A stretch of 64,000 nucleotides of DNA, from contig NZ_RKHO01000001.1 of the NCBI RefSeq assembly GCF_003752505.1, positions 3,968,001 through 4,032,000 of the forward strand. The letters run 5' to 3'. Of this stretch, positions 8,651 through 48,863 are shown in pieces. The position numbers and the translations under genes were made by a program. Position 1 is the first letter of the stretch. Each line of letters opens with the position of its first letter. A model generated the notes under the pieces. The model was given only the letters and a program-made list of their open reading frames with translations. It had not been told where the DNA came from and made no database searches. The DNA is from Nocardioides aurantiacus. Lineage in GTDB: Bacteria > Actinomycetota > Actinomycetes > Propionibacteriales > Nocardioidaceae.

Positions 8651-8657
8651 GCGCGCC

Positions 8658-9455
8658 GTGGGTGACACGGAGGACGACGGCGGGCCGAGGGAGAGCGACG
8701 ACGGCTTCGTCATCGAGGAGCTCTCGCGCCGCACCGGGCTCACGGTCCGCTCGCTGCGCAGCTACCAGACCCAGAAGCTGCTCCCGCCGCCCGCGGTGCG
8801 CGGTCGCACCGGCTACTACGGCGAGCAGCACGTCGCCCGGATCGAGCTGATCAAGGACCTGCAGAGCCAGGGCCTCAAGCTCAGCAGCATCGCCCGGATG
8901 GTCGACGGCCAGTCCGGCTCCGAGGCCGACCTGCTGCGCTTCACCCGCACCGTCACCAACCTGTTCGGCGAGCGGCGCGGCGCCTTCACCTCGGCCGAGG
9001 AGCTGATGGAGCGCTTCCGGGTCACCGAGGACGACGCGCCCACGGTCATCGTCAAGGCGATGGAGCTCGGGCTGGTCCAGGACGTCGGCGACGGCACCTT
9101 CGAGGAGCTCTCCCCGGAGCTGCTGAGCGCGGGCGAGCGGGCGGTACGGGTGCTGCGGCTCGACGCCGGCGGCGCGCTGCGGGTGCTGGAGTCGCTGCGC
9201 AAGCAGGCCGACGCGGTCGCGGACACCTACCTCGACCTGTTCATCGAGCGGGTCTGGTCGCCGTTCGTGGAGGCCGGTCGGCCGGCGGAGCAGTGGAGCG
9301 AGGTGGAGGCGGCGCTGCTCGACGTGCGCGCCCTGGCGACGGAGGCCCTGGTCAGCACCTTCGAGCTCGTGATGTCCGACCGGGTCGCCGAGGTCTTCGA
9401 CCGCGAGGTCGTGCGCGGCCAGGCCCGGCCGAAGCGACGCGGGCGGGGCCGCTGA
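8658..9455 (+). CDS. MerR-family transcriptional regulator
   Basis: A 265-residue regulator whose N-terminal MerR helix-turn-helix (residues ~15-85: FVIEELSRRTGLTVRSLRSY, then GYYGEQHVARIELIKDLQSQG) is clear. The remaining ~180 residues form a helical effector domain with no recognised ligand motif. It has no Cys cluster, so a metal-sensing CueR/ZntR type is unlikely. The GTG at 8658 is preferred over an upstream ATG at 8598 because the HTH then begins near the N-terminus and a -10 box sits just upstream. It is divergent from the membrane-protein operon and overlaps the next gene (TGATG), so it forms a two-gene unit with the dehydrogenase. Confidence 0.85.
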   Translation: MGDTEDDGGPRESDDGFVIEELSRRTGLTVRSLRSYQTQKLLPPPAVRGRTGYYGEQHVARIELIKDLQSQGLKLSSIARMVDGQSGSEADLLRFTRTVTNLFGERRGAFTSAEELMERFRVTEDDAPTVIVKAMELGLVQDVGDGTFEELSPELLSAGERAVRVLRLDAGGALRVLESLRKQADAVADTYLDLFIERVWSPFVEAGRPAEQWSEVEAALLDVRALATEALVSTFELVMSDRVAEVFDREVVRGQARPKRRGRGR

Positions 9456-41735: not shown

Positions 41736-42605
41736 CTAGCGGGCGTCGACCAGGGTGTCAGCAGGGGCTCGTTCGAGTCCACGACGCAGGTCGCGCAGGA
41801 TCCGGCTGAGCAGCCGGGAGACCTGCATCTGGGTCACGCCGATGTCGTCGGCGATCTCGCGCTGGGTGAGCCCGGAGAAGAAGCGCAGCTCGATGACGCG
41901 GCGGTCGCGCTCGGAGAGCCGGCTCACCAGCGGCCCGAGGACGGCGCGCGCCTCGGCGGCGCCCTGGGCCGGGTCGACGTCGCCCAGCAGGTCGGCCAGC
42001 GGCATCTCGCCGGTCTCGCCGACCGGCCGGTCCAACGACGCCGGGACGAAGCAGCCGCGGGCGGCCAGGGCCTCCTCGACATCGCTGAGGTCGACCTCGA
42101 GGGCTGCGGCCAGCTCGCTGGGACGGGGGGAGGTGCCGAGCCGGGCGCCGAGCTCGCTCTCGACCGCGGCGATGCCGGCCTGGATCTCCTGGATCCGGCG
42201 CGGCGGCCGGATCATCCAGCCGGAGTCGCGGAAGTAGCGCTTGATCTCGCCGCGGATGGTCGGCACCGCGAAGGAGAGGAAGTCGTGGCCCGAGTCGGTG
42301 TCGTAGCGGCGTACGGCCTTGACGAGCGCGAGCCGGGCGACGCCCTCCAGGTCGTCGTCACCGACGCCGCGGCCGCGGTAGCGCGAGGCGATCGACTCCG
42401 CGACCGGGATGTTGAGCAGGAGGACCTCCTCGAGGATCCGGGTGCGCTCGGCCTCGTCCTGGGTGTCCGCCAGCTCGGCGAACAGCTCGGAGGTGCGCAG
42501 CGAGCGGCGGTTCCGCGGGGGTGCGACCGGGGCGTCGGAGCCGGGCTCCGGCGCGGCGGCCGTGAGGTCCGGCGAGGTGGAGGGCTGGGGGAGGAGCGAG
42601 GTCAT
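41736..42605 (-). CDS. RNA polymerase sigma factor, SigB/SigF/SigG subfamily
   Basis: A 289-residue group 3 sigma factor of the general-stress/sporulation type. Region 2 (residues ~60-135) has PVAESIASRYRGRGVGDDDL, then ARLALVKAVRRYD and FLSFAVPTIRGEIKRYFRDS for core and -10 binding. Region 3 follows (~140-200), and region 4 (~225-280) ends with the helix-turn-helix LTQREIADDIGVTQMQVSRL. SigB/F family members are normally held by anti-sigma factors, none of which is adjacent. The ATG at 42605 was preferred because upstream sequence lacks coding character. It is followed by the GAF-ANTAR gene and lies just beyond the sunscreen-type cluster. Confidence 0.92.
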   Translation of the reverse strand: MTSLLPQPSTSPDLTAAAPEPGSDAPVAPPRNRRSLRTSELFAELADTQDEAERTRILEEVLLLNIPVAESIASRYRGRGVGDDDLEGVARLALVKAVRRYDTDSGHDFLSFAVPTIRGEIKRYFRDSGWMIRPPRRIQEIQAGIAAVESELGARLGTSPRPSELAAALEVDLSDVEEALAARGCFVPASLDRPVGETGEMPLADLLGDVDPAQGAAEARAVLGPLVSRLSERDRRVIELRFFSGLTQREIADDIGVTQMQVSRLLSRILRDLRRGLERAPADTLVDAR

Positions 42606-42772: not shown

Positions 42773-43579
42773 TCACCAGCCCGGGTGGTCCTCGCCGGAG
42801 CCGGCCTCCGCCTCGTGTCCCGCGACCATGCCGCGGTGCATCACGCGGTCGCCGACGACGCCGGAGTGGTCGGCCCGGTGCATCACCACGGCGTTGTCCC
42901 ACATCACCACGTCGCCCGACGACCAGGCGTGGCGCAGCGTGTTCTCCGGGCGGGTGGAGTGCTCCAGCAGCCGCGCGACCACCGCCTGCGTCTCCGCCTC
43001 GTCCATCCCGCTGATCGAGGCGCAGCGGGCGGCGGTGGAGAGGTAGAGCGCCGGGCGCCCGGTCACCGGGTGCGGCCGGAACACCGGGTGCTGGGCCTGG
43101 GTCTCCTCGTCGTCGTCGAGGTCGAGCCCGGTGACGACGTGGGTGATGCGCCGGCCCTCGAGGTGCTCGCGCAGGTCGGCGGGCAGGGTGTCGTGGGCGA
43201 GGTACTGGTTGGTGAAGAGGGTCTCGCCGCCCTCGTCGGGGATGGTGACGGTGCGCAGCGCGGTGTACGCCGGAGGGACCCGCAGATAGCTGGAGTCGAC
43301 GTGGAACTGGCTCCGCGGCGGGGTGGTGCGCCCGACGTTGCTGATCAGGTTGAGCTCGGGGCAGCCCTCGACCGGGGTCTCGCCGACCGTGAAGGCGAGG
43401 TCGCCGAACCGGCGCAGGAACGCCACGAACGCCTCGTCGTCGACGTCCTGGCCGGGGAAGACCGCGACCCCGCGCTCGGCCAGCAGCAGCCGCAGCTGCT
43501 CGACCTCGGCGTCGCTGACCTCGCGCAGGTCGAGGTCGGTGACCTCGACGCCGACGGGCTCGGTGGTGGTGGTCCTCAT
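42773..43579 (-). CDS. TauD/TfdA-family Fe(II)/2-oxoglutarate dioxygenase, last gene of the mycosporine-type operon
   Basis: A 268-residue non-haem iron oxygenase. The metal triad is His93 and Asp95 in SQFHVDSSYLR and His234 in NAVVMHRADHSG; Arg249 in DRVMHRGMVAG is the likely 2-oxoglutarate anchor. The length fits the TauD/TfdA family, which hydroxylates or demethylates small carboxylated substrates. It starts 10 nt after the D-Ala-D-Ala ligase homologue, with GAGGAGCACCCC before its ATG, so it belongs to the operon. In cyanobacteria a different 2-oxoglutarate oxygenase (MysH) converts shinorine-type compounds to palythines. A comparable tailoring role here is inferred, not shown. Confidence 0.85.
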   Translation of the reverse strand: MRTTTTEPVGVEVTDLDLREVSDAEVEQLRLLLAERGVAVFPGQDVDDEAFVAFLRRFGDLAFTVGETPVEGCPELNLISNVGRTTPPRSQFHVDSSYLRVPPAYTALRTVTIPDEGGETLFTNQYLAHDTLPADLREHLEGRRITHVVTGLDLDDDEETQAQHPVFRPHPVTGRPALYLSTAARCASISGMDEAETQAVVARLLEHSTRPENTLRHAWSSGDVVMWDNAVVMHRADHSGVVGDRVMHRGMVAGHEAEAGSGEDHPGW

Positions 43580-43589
43580 GGGGTGCTCC

Positions 43590-44687
43590 TCATCGGTGGA
43601 CGGCCCGCGCCAGGGCCTGGTCGAGGCCGGCGCGGAACAGGTCGGGCAGGCAGGTGCCGGCGGCGTCGGCCATCACGGCGACGACGCTGGTGGCGGCGTA
43701 GGAGCAGTAGAGGCCGGCCTCGAGGAACCACGGCTCCCCGTCGGCGTCCACCCGGAAGTCGAACAGGCTGTAGTCGCGGCAGCCCAGGGCACGGTGCGCG
43801 GCGTACGCCGCCTCGTGGACACGGGCGGTGAGCGGGTCGGCGGGGTCGAGGATCCAGGCGTACTCGTCGGTCTTGGCCACCAGGGCCAGGCTGCCCGCGC
43901 CCTCTCCCGGGCCCTCGCCCGCACCGTCCTCGGCCGGGTCGCGGCGCAGCTTGTCGGCCTCGCCGCGGACCGGCTTGGTCTCGCGGTCCACGGCGTACTC
44001 CTCCAGGGGGAGGCCGACGAGCCTGCCGTCGACCTCGAGGACGCCGCAGCGGACCTCGCGGCCGAGGTCGACGTACTCCTCGACCAGCACGTCGTCGCCG
44101 TGCTCGCGGGCGGCGGCGAGCGCCGCGTCCCACTCGGTGTCGTCACGCACCAGCGAGACGCCCGAGGAGTTGTCGGCGTCGACCGGCTTCACGACGGCCG
44201 GGAGGCCGAGCGTGGGTCGCTCGCCGGGCGCCAGCACCTCCCCGGCCGGCACCCGCACGCCAGCGGCCGCGACGACCGCCTTGGCGCGGGCCTTGTGGGC
44301 GGTCAGGGCCATCACGTCGGGTGCGTTGCCGACGAAGGGGATCCCGAGCAGGTCGAGCAGCGAGCGGTAGGTCGTCATGCCGGCCAGGCAGAACATCTGC
44401 GGCACCGCGACGTCGGGTGCCTCCGCGCGAAGCCGGGCCAGCGCCTCGTCGAGGCCGACGGCCGGTGCGGCGGCCACGGTGGCCCGCGCCAGGTCGGCCG
44501 GGAAGCGCCAGGAGCCGTCGGGCGAGACGTGGGCGACGAGGACGTCGTGCCGCTCGGGGTCGTGGGTGGCGACCAGGCAGTCGGCGGCGTACAGCACGGA
44601 CAGCTCGGCCATGAGGTCGGACGTGGGCGAGCCGACGAGGTGGAGCACGCGCAGCCGCCGGCCCGTCGTGGTCACCGGGTCAGTCAC
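43590..44687 (-). CDS. D-Ala-D-Ala ligase-like ATP-grasp enzyme, MysD-like
   Basis: A 365-residue ATP-grasp ligase of the D-alanine-D-alanine ligase family. The N-terminal domain contains VPQMFCLAGMTTYRSLLDLL and the central domain FVGNAPDVMALTAHKARAKA. The ATP-grasp core has LPAVVKPVDADNSSGVSLVR and DVLVEEYVDLGREVRCGVLE, and the metal-binding end is LFDFRVDADGEPWFLEAGLY. Asp and Glu metal ligands are visible, but the usual final Asn of N-P-G-type motifs reads EAG. Next to a MysC-like gene, such homologues attach a second amino acid to mycosporine-glycine to give shinorine-type iminomycosporines. The GTG start overlaps the upstream gene by 8 nt. A peptidoglycan role is unlikely in this context. 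Confidence 0.85.
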   Translation of the reverse strand: MTDPVTTTGRRLRVLHLVGSPTSDLMAELSVLYAADCLVATHDPERHDVLVAHVSPDGSWRFPADLARATVAAAPAVGLDEALARLRAEAPDVAVPQMFCLAGMTTYRSLLDLLGIPFVGNAPDVMALTAHKARAKAVVAAAGVRVPAGEVLAPGERPTLGLPAVVKPVDADNSSGVSLVRDDTEWDAALAAAREHGDDVLVEEYVDLGREVRCGVLEVDGRLVGLPLEEYAVDRETKPVRGEADKLRRDPAEDGAGEGPGEGAGSLALVAKTDEYAWILDPADPLTARVHEAAYAAHRALGCRDYSLFDFRVDADGEPWFLEAGLYCSYAATSVVAVMADAAGTCLPDLFRAGLDQALARAVHR

Positions 44688-46029
44688 CGCCGGCCTCCAC
44701 GAGCTTGCCGATGTTGAAGTCCACGCGCAGCCACGGCCGGCCCTCGATGAGGCTGCGCAGCAGCAGCCACGGCACCTGCACGTGGTGGGTGACGAAGAAC
44801 GGCAGCGGGTCGTCCCAGGCGAAGATCGCGTCGGTGCCCTCGCGCAGCACGCGCAGCCGCTCGCGACGACCGCGCTCGGCGAGCAGCCGCCAGGCCTCGT
44901 GGTAGGTCCAGTACGTCGGCCGGCTGGCCGCCGTCGGCACCACGACCTCGGCGTCCGGGTCGTCCTCGAGGTAGGCCGCGGCGACGCCCGGGTGGTCGTG
45001 GAGCAGCGTGATCGCGGAGTGGGTGCGCGGGTTGCACTCGATGGCGAGCACCTCGTCGTGCCCGTCGACGATGAAGTCCAGCGAGACCTGGCCCGTCAGG
45101 CCCGCCTCGCCGACGAAGGTGTCGACCCACGCGCGGATGCCGGGGTGCTCGACGTGGTCGTAGTTGACCTGGAAGGCCGAGGACTCGCAGCAGCAGTAGA
45201 CGGTGAGCCGGCCGTCGCGGACGGTGGAGTGGGTGCAGTACTCCGTGCCCTCGACGAACTCCTGGAGGATCCAGGGGTTGGCCTCGCTGATCGGCAGCGA
45301 GCGCACGAAGGACTCCATGCCGGGGAACGGCAGCCGGGTCAGGTCGAGCCGGTGCACGGGGTCGTAGGCGATGGACTTGAGGATGTAGGGCCGGGTGGCG
45401 CCGGAGAAGTCGTGGTCGAGGACCTGCTGGGCGTCGGTGACCAGGTGGGTGTCGGGCACGCCCAGCCCGGCCTCGGCGGCGGCGCGGGCGAAGCGGAACT
45501 TGTCGTCGACCAGCTCCAGCCGGTCGGCGTCGAGGTGGACCACCTCGCAGACCTGCTCCAGCTGCTTCTTGGCCCGGGCGTCGGCGACCGACGACGCGGG
45601 ACTGCAGACCGGCACGTAGACGTCGACGCCCTCCGTGCGCGCGATCGCCTCCAGGGCGTCGGCGTAGTCGGGAGACCCGGCGTCGGGGATCGTGTGGAAC
45701 GCGTCGACCGAGCGGGAGAAGCGGTGGCCGGTGAACCGGTAGCGCGCCGACTCCACCAGCACGACCCGGTGACCGGCGGCGTGGAAGGCCCGGCACAGCG
45801 CCAGCGCCTTGGTCATCTTGCCGCCGCTGACCATCACCGTCCTGGGTCGCGACGGGCTCGACCGCCGGGCACCCTCGAGCGTCGGTCGAGGACCGAGTCC
45901 CGTCGGTCGAGCCCGTCGAGGCCACGAGGCCACCAGCGCCGTCGTGGTCAACGCCGCGTTGGCGGGCAGCACCAGGCCGAGCAGGCCCAGCGCACCGAGC
46001 GTGCGGGCGGAGTGGGTGAGGCGGGTCAT
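44680..46029 (-). CDS. ATP-grasp enzyme, MysC-like (mycosporine-glycine synthase type)
   Basis: A 449-residue ATP-grasp protein. An N-terminal hydrophobic helix (residues ~10-33) and a Pro/Arg-rich linker precede the catalytic part, as in cyanobacterial MysC. The catalytic region begins VMVSGGKMTKALALCRAFHA, continues with DAFHTIPDAGSPDYADALEA and ATRPYILKSIAYDPVHRLDL, and ends with VLAIECNPRTHSAITLLHDH, which holds the metal-binding Glu and Asn. The predicted reaction joins glycine to 4-deoxygadusol. Start ATG overlaps the methyltransferase stop (ATGA). A palindromic REP-like sequence lies inside the linker (45851-45917), so that segment is probably not functionally constrained. Confidence 0.87.
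   Translation of the reverse strand: MTRLTHSARTLGALGLLGLVLPANAALTTTALVASWPRRARPTGLGPRPTLEGARRSSPSRPRTVMVSGGKMTKALALCRAFHAAGHRVVLVESARYRFTGHRFSRSVDAFHTIPDAGSPDYADALEAIARTEGVDVYVPVCSPASSVADARAKKQLEQVCEVVHLDADRLELVDDKFRFARAAAEAGLGVPDTHLVTDAQQVLDHDFSGATRPYILKSIAYDPVHRLDLTRLPFPGMESFVRSLPISEANPWILQEFVEGTEYCTHSTVRDGRLTVYCCCESSAFQVNYDHVEHPGIRAWVDTFVGEAGLTGQVSLDFIVDGHDEVLAIECNPRTHSAITLLHDHPGVAAAYLEDDPDAEVVVPTAASRPTYWTYHEAWRLLAERGRRERLRVLREGTDAIFAWDDPLPFFVTHHVQVPWLLLRSLIEGRPWLRVDFNIGKLVEAGGD
45851..45917. repeat. REP-like palindrome inside the mysC-like gene
   Basis: GACGGGCTCGACCG (45851-45864) is perfectly complementary to CGGTCGAGCCCGTC (45904-45917), 39 bp apart, and CGTCGGTCGAG occurs twice in direct orientation (45880-45890 and 45901-45911). 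It falls within the linker between the membrane helix and the ATP-grasp domain and keeps the reading frame. A related 20-mer lies at 38465-38484. From general knowledge, short palindromes of the GGTCGAGC..GTCGAG kind are abundant in Nocardioides-like genomes. Confidence 0.65.
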
Positions 46030-46868
46030 CCGGCGGTGCGGCGCACGAGCGTGACGCCGTCGCGGACCGGCAGCACCACCTGCTCGACGCGGGGGTCGTC
46101 GGCGAGCACCTGGTTGAAGGCGGCGATCGCCTCGCCGTTCGCGGACGAGGTGCCCCCGGTCCACGGCTCGCCCTGCATCAGGGTGTTGTCGACCACGAGC
46201 AGCCCGCGGCGGGCGAGCAGCCCGGTGTCGAGCAGGGCGCGGAGGTAGTCGACGTAGCCCGCCTTGTCGGCGTCGAGGAAGACCAGGTCGAACCGCGCGC
46301 CGGCGTCGGCCAAGGCGTGGAGCGTGTCCAGCGCCGGTCCGACGTGGACGTCGATGCGATCGCCGGCCGGGGAGGCCTCGAAGCACTCCTGCGCCAGCGC
46401 CGCGACGCGCTCGTCGATCTCGCAGGCGACGACCACGCCCTCCTCGCCCGCGACCTCCTGGACCGCCTCGGCCATGGCCAGTGCGGAGTAGCCGGTGAAC
46501 ATCCCGATCTCCAGCACCTTCCGCGCCCGGGTGGCGTGCACCAGCGTCTTGAGCAGCTGGCCCTCGAGGTGGCCGGAGAGCATCTCCTGCTCGAGCCCGG
46601 CGCCGTCGCCCGCCCAGTCCTCGGCCGCGGTGCGCTCCGACAATGCGCGGAGGGCGGGCGACTCGGGAGTGGACAGGGCGGCGGTGTAGGGGTCGAGCCC
46701 CGCCGCCAGGGCGGCGGCGCGCCGGATCTCCGAGCCCAGGGCGGGATCCAGCGCGACGCCGTCGGGACGGGCCTCGGCCTCGTCGAGGCGGCGTACGACG
46801 TCCTCCAGGCTGGCCGCGAGGAGGGCCACCGGCGTGACCGGCCGCGGGGTGGTGCGGGTCGAGGTCAT
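46026..46868 (-). CDS. SAM-dependent O-methyltransferase, MysB-like
   Basis: A 280-residue class I methyltransferase of the catechol/caffeoyl-CoA O-methyltransferase type. The SAM site is [20 protein letters not shown] (near residue 118), followed by acidic residue motif [18 protein letters not shown]; the divalent metal site is [20 protein letters not shown] and [12 protein letters not shown]. In mycosporine pathways this enzyme methylates demethyl-4-deoxygadusol to 4-deoxygadusol. It overlaps both neighbours by 4 bp (ATGA), between the cyclase and the ATP-grasp genes, which is the usual order. On its own it could methylate many catechol-like compounds; the context decides the call. Confidence 0.88.
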
Positions 46869-48076
46869 GCCGCCGGCGAGGTGAACATGTCCTGGCCCTC
46901 GCCCTGGCGCGGGTAGCCCCGGACCAGCTCCTTGTGACGCGTCAGCATGCCGTCGAGCTGGTCGGCGTCGAGGTCGTTGGCGAACACGCAGGTGCCGATC
47001 GGCTGCGGCAGCGCGGCACGCAGCAGGCCGTCACGGGTCTGCATGATCGACTCGGTGCCCTGGCGCAGCAGCTCCGGCGTCAGGTGCGGGCTGTCCAGGG
47101 CGAGGCCGATGCTGCTCATCACGCCGAGGATGCGGTCGCGCTCGATCTCCGAGACGTAGCCCAGCTCGTGGGCGACCGAGGCCGAGAACGCCATGTCGAC
47201 GTTGATGGCGTGGCCGTGGAAGTAGGGCACCTCGGGGGTGAGCTCCAGCGTCGGGCTCCAGGTGTGGCCGTAGGCGATCACCCGGTCGAGGTCGAGCTCG
47301 TGCAGGTTGGGCACCTCCAGGGTGAGCATCGTCCTGATCGCCTCGTAGGTGATCGTGTCGGCGACCTCGCGCAGCTGGTCGTTGCCGTCGAGGTGGCCGA
47401 AGCGGGTGCGCAGCAGCTCCTCGCCGTACTTCTCCAGCAGGTCGAAGATCTCGGCGTTGGCGACCACCGCGATCTTGATGAGCTCCGCCATCCCGTTGCG
47501 GACCTGGTCCTCGGGGAGCGTCTCCAGCAGGGAGAAGTCCAGGAGCACCTTCTGCGACGCGTGGTAGGCGCCGAGCCGGTTCTTGTGCTTGCCGTGGTTG
47601 ACCGCGACCTTGATCGAGACGCTGGCGTCGATCAGCCCGATCAGGGTGGTGGGGATGCGGATGTAGTTGGTGCTCCGGCGGTACGACGCGCAGGCGAACC
47701 CGGCGACGTCGGTGGTCAGCCCGCCGCCGACGACCAGCACCGGCTCCTTGCGCAGCAGGCCGAAGTCGGCGAAGGCGTCGACGATCTTCTCCACCGTGGC
47801 GAGGGTCTTGCGCTGCTCGCCGATCTTGATCGCGAACACCGTCAGGTCGATGCCGTGGTGGGCGAAGTAGGCCCGCAGCCGCTCGCCGTGGAGCGCGTCG
47901 ACCTGCTCGTCGACGACGGCCAGGCAACGGCCGTAGTCGCGGTAGGTGTCGGCCAGCTCGGGGTTGTCGAGGTCGAAGACGCCGCGGCTGTAGACCAGGC
48001 TGAAGTCGATCGACTCCCGGCCGGAGACGTGGAAGGCCGAGTCGGTGGCCTCGAGGGTCGCGTGCACGCTGGACAT
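46865..48076 (-). CDS. Sedoheptulose-7-phosphate cyclase, demethyl-4-deoxygadusol synthase-like (MysA-like)
   Basis: A 403-residue member of the dehydroquinate synthase-like sugar phosphate cyclases. NAD-binding and phosphate motifs are clear: [40 protein letters not shown] with [13 protein letters not shown], and the zinc ligands in [13 protein letters not shown] and [20 protein letters not shown] followed by [21 protein letters not shown] and [17 protein letters not shown] resemble demethyl-4-deoxygadusol synthases of mycosporine clusters more than 2-epi-5-epi-valiolone synthases, which also use sedoheptulose 7-phosphate. Neighbouring MysB-, MysC- and MysD-like genes support that choice. 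The ATG is preceded by AGAGGA. It overlaps the methyltransferase by 4 bp. Confidence 0.9.
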
Positions 48077-48117: not shown

Positions 48118-48786
48118 TCAGGCGCTCTGCGCCAGGCCGACGAGGGCGGCGGCGTCGAGCTTGTCCACCCGGGAGTGCGCGCCGGCGAAGTCGTGGCCGG
48201 CGGTGTTGGCGTTGGGGAAGGCGATGACGGTCACGCCGGCCGCGGTGGCCGCCTCGACGCCGCCGAGGTTGTCCTCGATCGCGACGCAGGCGCCGGCCTG
48301 CTCGTCGAGGCGGTCCAGGGCGAAGGCGTAGGCGTCGCGGTCGGGCTTGGGCTGCTCGACCTGGGTGACGTCGACGACCACGTCGAAGCCGCGCAGGTCG
48401 ACGTGGGGCCGCAGCGCGGTGACCAGGGCGTCGATGTTGTCGGGGCTGGTGGTGGTGACCAGGCCGACCTTGAGGCCCTCGCGGTGCGCGGCCTCGATGG
48501 TCTCCACGACGCCGGGGCGGGGCTCCACGCCCTCGCTGATCAGCTTGTCCTGGAAGATCGAGGACTTGGTGGCGTGCACGGCCCGGGCGTCGACCTCCTG
48601 GCCACGCTCCTCGGCGTACGCCGCGACGCGGTCGGCACCGCCGCTGGACTCGAGCATCGCGACGTAGTCGTCGTGCTCCCAGCGCCAGTCGAGCCCGTGC
48701 TGGGCGAACGCCTCGTTGAAGGACTCGCGCTGCAGCTCGGAGGTGTCGGCGACGCTGCTGATCGAACCGAACAGGATGGCGGCCAT
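48118..48786 (-). CDS. HAD-fold protein lacking the nucleophilic Asp, first gene of the mycosporine-type operon
   Basis: A 222-residue HAD subtype IA-like protein. Motif I, normally FDxDGT, reads [20 protein letters not shown]: both catalytic Asp residues are replaced (Gly and Ser). Motif II is present as VTTTSPDN, motif III Lys in [12 protein letters not shown], and motif IV as [16 protein letters not shown]. It therefore cannot use the usual phospho-Asp mechanism and may be a binding or regulatory protein, or use other chemistry. The ATG at 48786 is behind GAGGAGCACCCCC. It lies 41 nt upstream of the cyclase gene on the same strand. A role in handling sedoheptulose phosphate is only a guess. 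Confidence 0.8.
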
Positions 48787-48863
48787 GGGGGTGCTCCTCG
48801 TGTGGGTGCCGACCGCCCGTGCGACCAGCTTGTTCAAGTAATCAGTGTTTACCCAGAACATAC

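Follow-up and report, generated by a model that had tools for sequence, protein, structure and literature searches.

The stretch of DNA analysed here (the window; 64,000 nt from Nocardioides aurantiacus) contains a run of six genes on one strand, in the order HAD-mysA-mysB-mysC-mysD-tauD, that ends in a gene for an Fe(II)/2-oxoglutarate (2OG) dioxygenase. The features of the locus are as follows.

48118-48861, minus strand: HAD-family hydrolase (PF13419), first of the six genes and a frequent member of actinobacterial mys clusters
46865-48076, minus strand: mysA, dehydroquinate-synthase-like cyclase (PF01761/PF24621; 66% identity to Nostoc HK-01 MysA)
46026-46868, minus strand: mysB, O-methyltransferase (PF01596; 52% identity to Nostoc HK-01 MysB)
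44680-46029, minus strand: mysC, ATP-grasp enzyme (NF005315 above cut-off; 55% identity to Nostoc HK-01 MysC)
43590-44687, minus strand: mysD, D-Ala-D-Ala-ligase-like ATP-grasp enzyme (PF07478; 51% identity to Nostoc HK-01 MysD)
43580-43589, minus strand: 10-nt spacer with a ribosome-binding site, GAGGAG, that reaches into the mysD stop codon
42773-43579, minus strand: tauD, TauD/TfdA-family Fe(II)/2OG dioxygenase, last gene of the mys operon (PF02668, 199.9 bits; catalytic residues; clade)
41736-42605, minus strand: SigF/SigB-type sigma factor, next gene on the strand, 167 nt after tauD

MysA to MysD of the window are 51 to 66% identical to the mysABCD proteins encoded on a plasmid of Nostoc sp. 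HK-01; mysA we take to belong to the 4-deoxygadusol pathway and mysC to be responsible for the mycosporine-glycine step. With the chosen starts, the overlaps among the mys genes are 4 to 8 nt; the GTG start of mysD was taken from the list of open reading frames (relatives align from about residue 12), the start of mysC was set at 46029, and the true start of the HAD gene may sit some 20 codons further in, where the alignment with relatives begins. The tauD reading frame is intact, starts with ATG and encodes 268 amino acids. The mysD stop codon is a TGA at 43590, and exactly 10 nt (ggagcacccc) lie between mysD and the tauD ATG, as the initial annotation had described; the ribosome-binding site that it had assigned to tauD was also found, as a GAGGAG 6 nt before the ATG that overlaps the mysD stop. 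Because of the short gap and a GAGGAG reaching back into the stop codon, translation of tauD is likely coupled to that of mysD. Of the loci fetched, only that of a near relative, Marmoricola sp. Leaf446 (L004/L013), has the SigF/SigB-type gene in the same position; a stress sigma factor beside a UV-screen operon is suggestive, and it is probably a chance neighbour.

The association of tauD with mys genes was followed in samples of 294 genomes of the family, 394 of the class, 296 of the phylum and 180 from the family to which Pseudonocardia sp. KRD291 belongs. A gene was scored as absent from a cluster if the window's proteins gave no tblastn match at E 1e-8, absence of TauD from the rest of a genome was judged by profile search, and matches to the MysB profile below 203 bits were dropped before counting; the stretches examined around eight such matches (L040-L047), several of them on short contigs, contained no other mys gene. 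In the family sample, 18 genomes have 19 TauD orthologs, all above 350 bits, and each of the 19 lies inside a mys cluster. MysB above 260 bits is found in 22 genomes at 23 places, and all 18 genomes with a TauD ortholog are among these 22 (naive hypergeometric p of 3e-25, a value that ignores relatedness). At the 23 places, 19 TauD genes are intact, one is interrupted by a run of N, and three clusters of one genus have no TauD; the profile search revealed no ortholog-level TauD elsewhere in these three genomes either, and one of the clusters (L034) begins at a contig end. The interrupted copy (G028) appears split in the tblastn table, but only the run of N interrupts it, so the copy was counted as not scorable and not as a frame break or loss. 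The class sample added five clusters beyond those of the family, all five with TauD, and all five strong TauD matches of the phylum sample lie in mys clusters; the stretches fetched around the next four matches (140 to 175 bits) contained no mys gene. A scan of named genomes with the TauD protein gave nine loci, and all nine carry mysA, mysB, mysC, mysD and the HAD gene. Hence, every TauD ortholog found above 350 bits sits in a mys cluster. The converse does not hold: 14 genomes of the Pseudonocardia family have MysB, and four of their clusters contain an intact TauD, one a remnant and nine none. In total, the 42 MysB-led clusters (window included) comprise 28 with an intact TauD, one with the N-interrupted copy, one with the remnant and 12 without the gene, and since 12 of the 42 lack it, TauD is an optional tailoring gene. 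The initial annotation had asked whether the neighbour recurs in actinobacterial mys clusters, and named as a refutation its absence there together with an association with unrelated genes. This refutation did not come about: the neighbour recurs in the family, phylum and named-genome samples, without being universal.

Beyond the actinobacterial samples, 437 of 72,556 plasmid records matched TauD, all below 60% identity and with 34.7% as the highest value among the best 40 of the 437. A contig of a metagenome-assembled genome (MAG) assigned to Flammeovirgaceae (Bacteroidota) carries mysA to mysD, the HAD gene and a TauD 44% identical to that of the window (L012, 4372-11250), and in 247 genomes of its phylum only this MAG matched TauD. 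The contig is short, and the locus reflects either transfer or misbinning. The phyla that the available text of the GATOR-GC preprint (PMC11888242) names do not include Bacteroidota.

The position of tauD within the clusters varies. We tabulated gene order in 52 clusters, with the Nostoc HK-01 cluster included, the window not counted and L013 dropped as lying on the same contig as L004. TauD follows mysD in 19 clusters and in two more with the HAD gene between mysA and mysB; it lies between mysB and mysC in 12 with HAD and mysA in view (one the N-interrupted copy, one the remnant) and in one more at a contig end, before the HAD gene in two, on the opposite strand past mysD in two, and next to the HAD gene in one, the Flammeovirgaceae MAG. 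TauD was kept despite changing places around mysA-D, with at least four placements relative to the mys genes, and little other than a common function would account for this. One genome (G005) has two mys clusters (L015, L018) that differ in the position of TauD: it is terminal in one, whereas mysB and mysC flank it in the other. MysA is much more divergent (38 to 39% identity) in L049 and L050, a pair of clusters from other families of the phylum that have the HAD gene between mysA and mysB. The HAD gene itself is present in most tabulated clusters, including seven without TauD.

In a tree with seven outside sequences and MysI left out, the 38 intact cluster TauDs fall on one side of a branch with support of 100/98. 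With the long-branched MysI added, the single clade was not recovered; two changes are then needed, and only 29% of the bootstrap trees have a branch that sets the cluster TauDs apart. The place of TfdA beside the cluster clade is weak (59/18) and its branch is long, so the tree does not show a descent of the cluster TauDs from TfdA-like enzymes. A second TauD-family gene elsewhere on the chromosome of the window's genome (L055, G000:C1:908177-908971) is about 30% identical to the window's TauD; the tree without MysI places it in a group (98/96) with E. coli TauD and two further outside sequences.

The clusters without an intact TauD belong in part to the Pseudonocardia family. In one of them (L058, genome G1060), mysB and mysC flank a TauD remnant at 8656-9183 that no longer has the HxD region or the C-terminal arginines; the HAD gene and mysA to mysD are present, and the remnant is a natural loss. 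Five clusters of this family consist of the HAD gene and mysA to mysD without TauD, two (L063, L065) are without both HAD and TauD, and two (L069, L070) gave no match to MysD, HAD or TauD. We take L063 to be the cluster of Actinosynnema mirum DSM 43827. A four-gene cluster of A. mirum is listed in the accessible part of PMC10384724 as giving shinorine in yeast, and the same text reports that A. mirum itself yielded no visible mycosporine-like amino acid (MAA) when cultured (PMC10384724); the TauD-minus comparison therefore rests on yeast expression. Since mysA-D clusters without TauD exist, one of them with a remnant that has lost the HxD motif, TauD is no core step of the pathway, and the pattern of presence and loss suggests to us a tailoring step that is late and optional.

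The protein matches the Pfam TauD family (PF02668) over residues 6 to 250 with 199.9 bits (cut-off of 27), and PF02668 was the only domain found in the Pfam scan, with no PF05721. Alignment with E. coli TauD and TfdA places H93, D95 and H234 at the metal ligands (H99, D101 and H255 in E. coli TauD), T120 and R245 at the 2OG residues (T126 and R266), and R249 at TauD R270 and TfdA R278; the roles of these six residues in E. coli TauD are presumed, as are those of TfdA R278 and K95 in substrate binding. All six are invariant in the 38 aligned TauDs from mys clusters (L023 and L058 were left out of this alignment). By sequence, the enzyme is thus intact, as the initial annotation had maintained for the metal and 2OG residues. 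Further residues, among them E67, N77, N81, R84, R185, D237 and H238, are invariant in the 38 proteins and differ from E. coli TauD. E67 stands in place of TauD Y73, R185 in place of TauD F206 and TfdA H214, and R84 in place of TfdA K95, N81 is common to the window's TauD and TfdA, and 35 of the 38 have R or K at the position of TauD N95. These clade-specific residues point to a specialized pocket and leave the reaction unspecified. Among the solved relatives, RdpA scores highest by sequence (134 bits), against 130.6 bits for PlaO1 and 106.7 for E. coli TauD, and the hit lists include TauD-fold enzymes named as N-carboxymethyl oxidizers (ScoE/Rv0097 type). An AlphaFold2 model built from 10 sequences has a middling pLDDT of 72.6, and its weakest parts include residues 83 to 93 at the metal motif. 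It shows the double-stranded beta-helix fold and matches AAD-1, TauD, RdpA and PlaO1 about equally well (Z of 24 to 26); AAD-1/RdpA and taurine dioxygenase are tied (Z of 25.9 and 25.7), and the fold favours neither over the other.

Taken together, the data make it likely that TauD is a mycosporine-tailoring Fe(II)/2OG oxygenase that probably acts after MysD on a shinorine-type compound and removes one amino-acid arm to give a palythine. In this model, the substrate would be the two-amino-acid (iminomycosporine) product of MysD, such as shinorine. In one arm, the enzyme would hydroxylate the carbon that joins the carboxylate to the ring-bound nitrogen, and the resulting hemiaminal would collapse with release of a keto acid, that is, glyoxylate from glycine or hydroxypyruvate from serine. 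The bare nitrogen would stay on the ring, which would yield a palythine-type sunscreen absorbing near 320 nm and not at 334 nm. TfdA and RdpA hydroxylate an aryloxy-carboxylate next to the oxygen, which gives a phenol and a keto acid, and the nearest solved relatives in general hydroxylate a carbon between a heteroatom and a carboxylate. Overall, the proposed reaction would be an N-dealkylation, the nitrogen version of the TfdA/RdpA reaction. The cluster without TauD and HAD that we take to be A. mirum's goes with shinorine in yeast, whereas palythines are reported, second-hand, for a Rhodococcus operon with both genes. For that operon, an unpublished meeting abstract quoted in PMC11888242 names shinorine, palythine and palythine-serine as the products. 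The palythine reading is favoured because these quoted products, the pattern of presence and absence, the parallel with MysH and the chemistry of the relatives point the same way. As the quoted mixture holds both palythine and palythine-serine, it suggests that either amino-acid arm can be removed. Palythines are natural UV filters of interest, and a compact bacterial shinorine-to-palythine enzyme would, if the model is true, widen the toolbox beyond the cyanobacterial MysH; the natural losses of TauD would ease genotype-product tests.

TauD-fold enzymes catalyze varied chemistry, and the protein may tailor MAAs by another reaction, for example by oxidizing the ring or by a side-chain change (stable hydroxylation, desaturation or decarboxylation) that gives usujirene- or palythene-like products. 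The linkage to mys clusters is equally good evidence for such a reaction, PlaO1 and ScoE types are in the hit list, and the invariant residues of the clade indicate a specialized pocket without telling its reaction. However, the products reported second-hand for Rhodococcus (PMC11888242) are palythines, and the accessible text of PMC11378024 describes palythine variants upon heterologous expression with MysH, the PhyH-type enzyme found in Nostoc mys clusters; we therefore regard another tailoring reaction as unlikely. An action before MysD, on mycosporine-glycine or 4-deoxygadusol, would make the operon's product mono-substituted. In 11 clusters an intact TauD does sit between mysB and mysC (as do the N-interrupted copy and the remnant), but the step cannot be read from gene order. 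MysD accompanies the intact TauD in each of 38 clusters (window included), and both clusters without a match to MysD are also without TauD. These are weak arguments, and MysD co-occurrence says little on the order of the steps because MysD is present in 50 of the 52 tabulated clusters, with or without TauD; still, we consider an action before MysD very improbable. A role in sulfur supply, with the gene encoding a dioxygenase of taurine or alkylsulfonates and standing behind mysD by chance, can practically be dismissed: the fold, the PF02668 match, the metal and 2OG sites, the R270 equivalent R249 and a match to NF007104, the model for taurine dioxygenase, would fit, but that match stays below the equivalog cut-off (138.3 bits against 313), what we take to be the taurine pocket positions Y73 and F206 are replaced in all 38 proteins and N95 by R or K in 35, the seven genes scanned at the locus include no taurine gene, the orthologs found above 350 bits sit in mys clusters, and the genome has a separate TauD-family gene.

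We return to the proposed palythine-forming tailoring enzyme and compare it with known systems. The initial annotation had presented the gene as a candidate new tailoring enzyme for MAAs. It was right in kind, in that a TauD-type protein is tied to mys clusters; its claim of novelty is overtaken by a 2025 preprint. GATOR-GC, in its passages on actinobacterial MAA clusters, describes TauD/TfdA and HAD as conserved there and proposes a role in palythine formation, and its authors state that, to their knowledge, no earlier MAA cluster had contained HAD or TauD/TfdA (PMC11888242). Hence, the association is already described, and the window's gene is a new example, not a new kind of thing. Like the GATOR-GC TauDs, it is of the same type and lies in a mysA-D cluster with the HAD gene, so that, judged by gene type and context, the two very likely belong to the same enzyme family. 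Unlike them, it comes from another genome, whose nearest named relative is Marmoricola sp. Leaf446 (97% TauD identity). Our analysis adds data on residues, clade, position and loss as well as one Bacteroidota MAG.

A cyanobacterial TauD-family enzyme, MysI of Nostoc sp. UHCC 0926, was named in 2023 and thus precedes the GATOR-GC preprint; the excerpted text of PMC10510106 proposes that it makes a palythine from a glycine-bearing MAA. MysI is also a PF02668 protein (70.1 bits), but it has 387 amino acids, and BLASTP aligns it with the window's TauD with 22.7 bits over 44 residues. It reads HxE and has no R270 equivalent, on an unsure alignment, whereas the window's TauD has both HxD and R249. 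Furthermore, MysI is accompanied by mysF and mysE outside mysA-D, whereas the window's gene lies within the mysA-D run, and the seven genes scanned at the window's locus include neither an NRPS nor a second methyltransferase. On a plasmid of Nostoc sp. UHCC 0926, a PF02668 gene is flanked by a methyltransferase gene and a long NRPS-like open reading frame, which fits mysF-mysI-mysE.

MysH, like the window's TauD, is an Fe/2OG oxygenase encoded beside mysC and mysD, and the two likely share the outcome, palythine formation. The initial annotation had placed MysH in a different, PhyH-type branch, and the families bear this out, with PF05721 for MysH and PF02668 for the window's TauD. On the plasmid of Nostoc sp. 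HK-01, a gene for a PhyH-family (MysH-like) protein, annotated as hypothetical, lies between mysC and mysD (L057, 11268-12071), and BLASTP of the window's TauD against this HK-01 protein, a comparator other than the characterized NIES-25 enzyme, gave 13.9 bits and no significant similarity. Orthology to MysI or MysH was not found.

RdpA, AAD-1 and TfdA are the nearest solved relatives by sequence and among the best by fold, and the proposed chemistry would be their reaction on N in place of O. They differ from the window's TauD in gene context, share about 26 to 35% identity with it in structural alignments, and TfdA has H214 at the place of R185. Since the protein shows no significant similarity to a MysH-type protein and little to MysI, the actinobacterial TauD may represent a third recruitment. 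In its fuller form, this idea is one we put forward tentatively, with slightly more doubt than confidence: the TauDs of mys clusters would be the third independent palythine-forming recruitment after MysH (PhyH) and MysI (a remote TauD), would be related to TfdA/RdpA and split a C-N bond as these split a C-O bond, and would grip the carboxylates of shinorine with Arg84, Arg185 and Arg249. If the palythine reading is true, 2OG oxygenases were recruited convergently for one modification, and if the third recruitment is true as well, this change to the sunscreen has at least three separate origins in different branches of the 2OG oxygenases.
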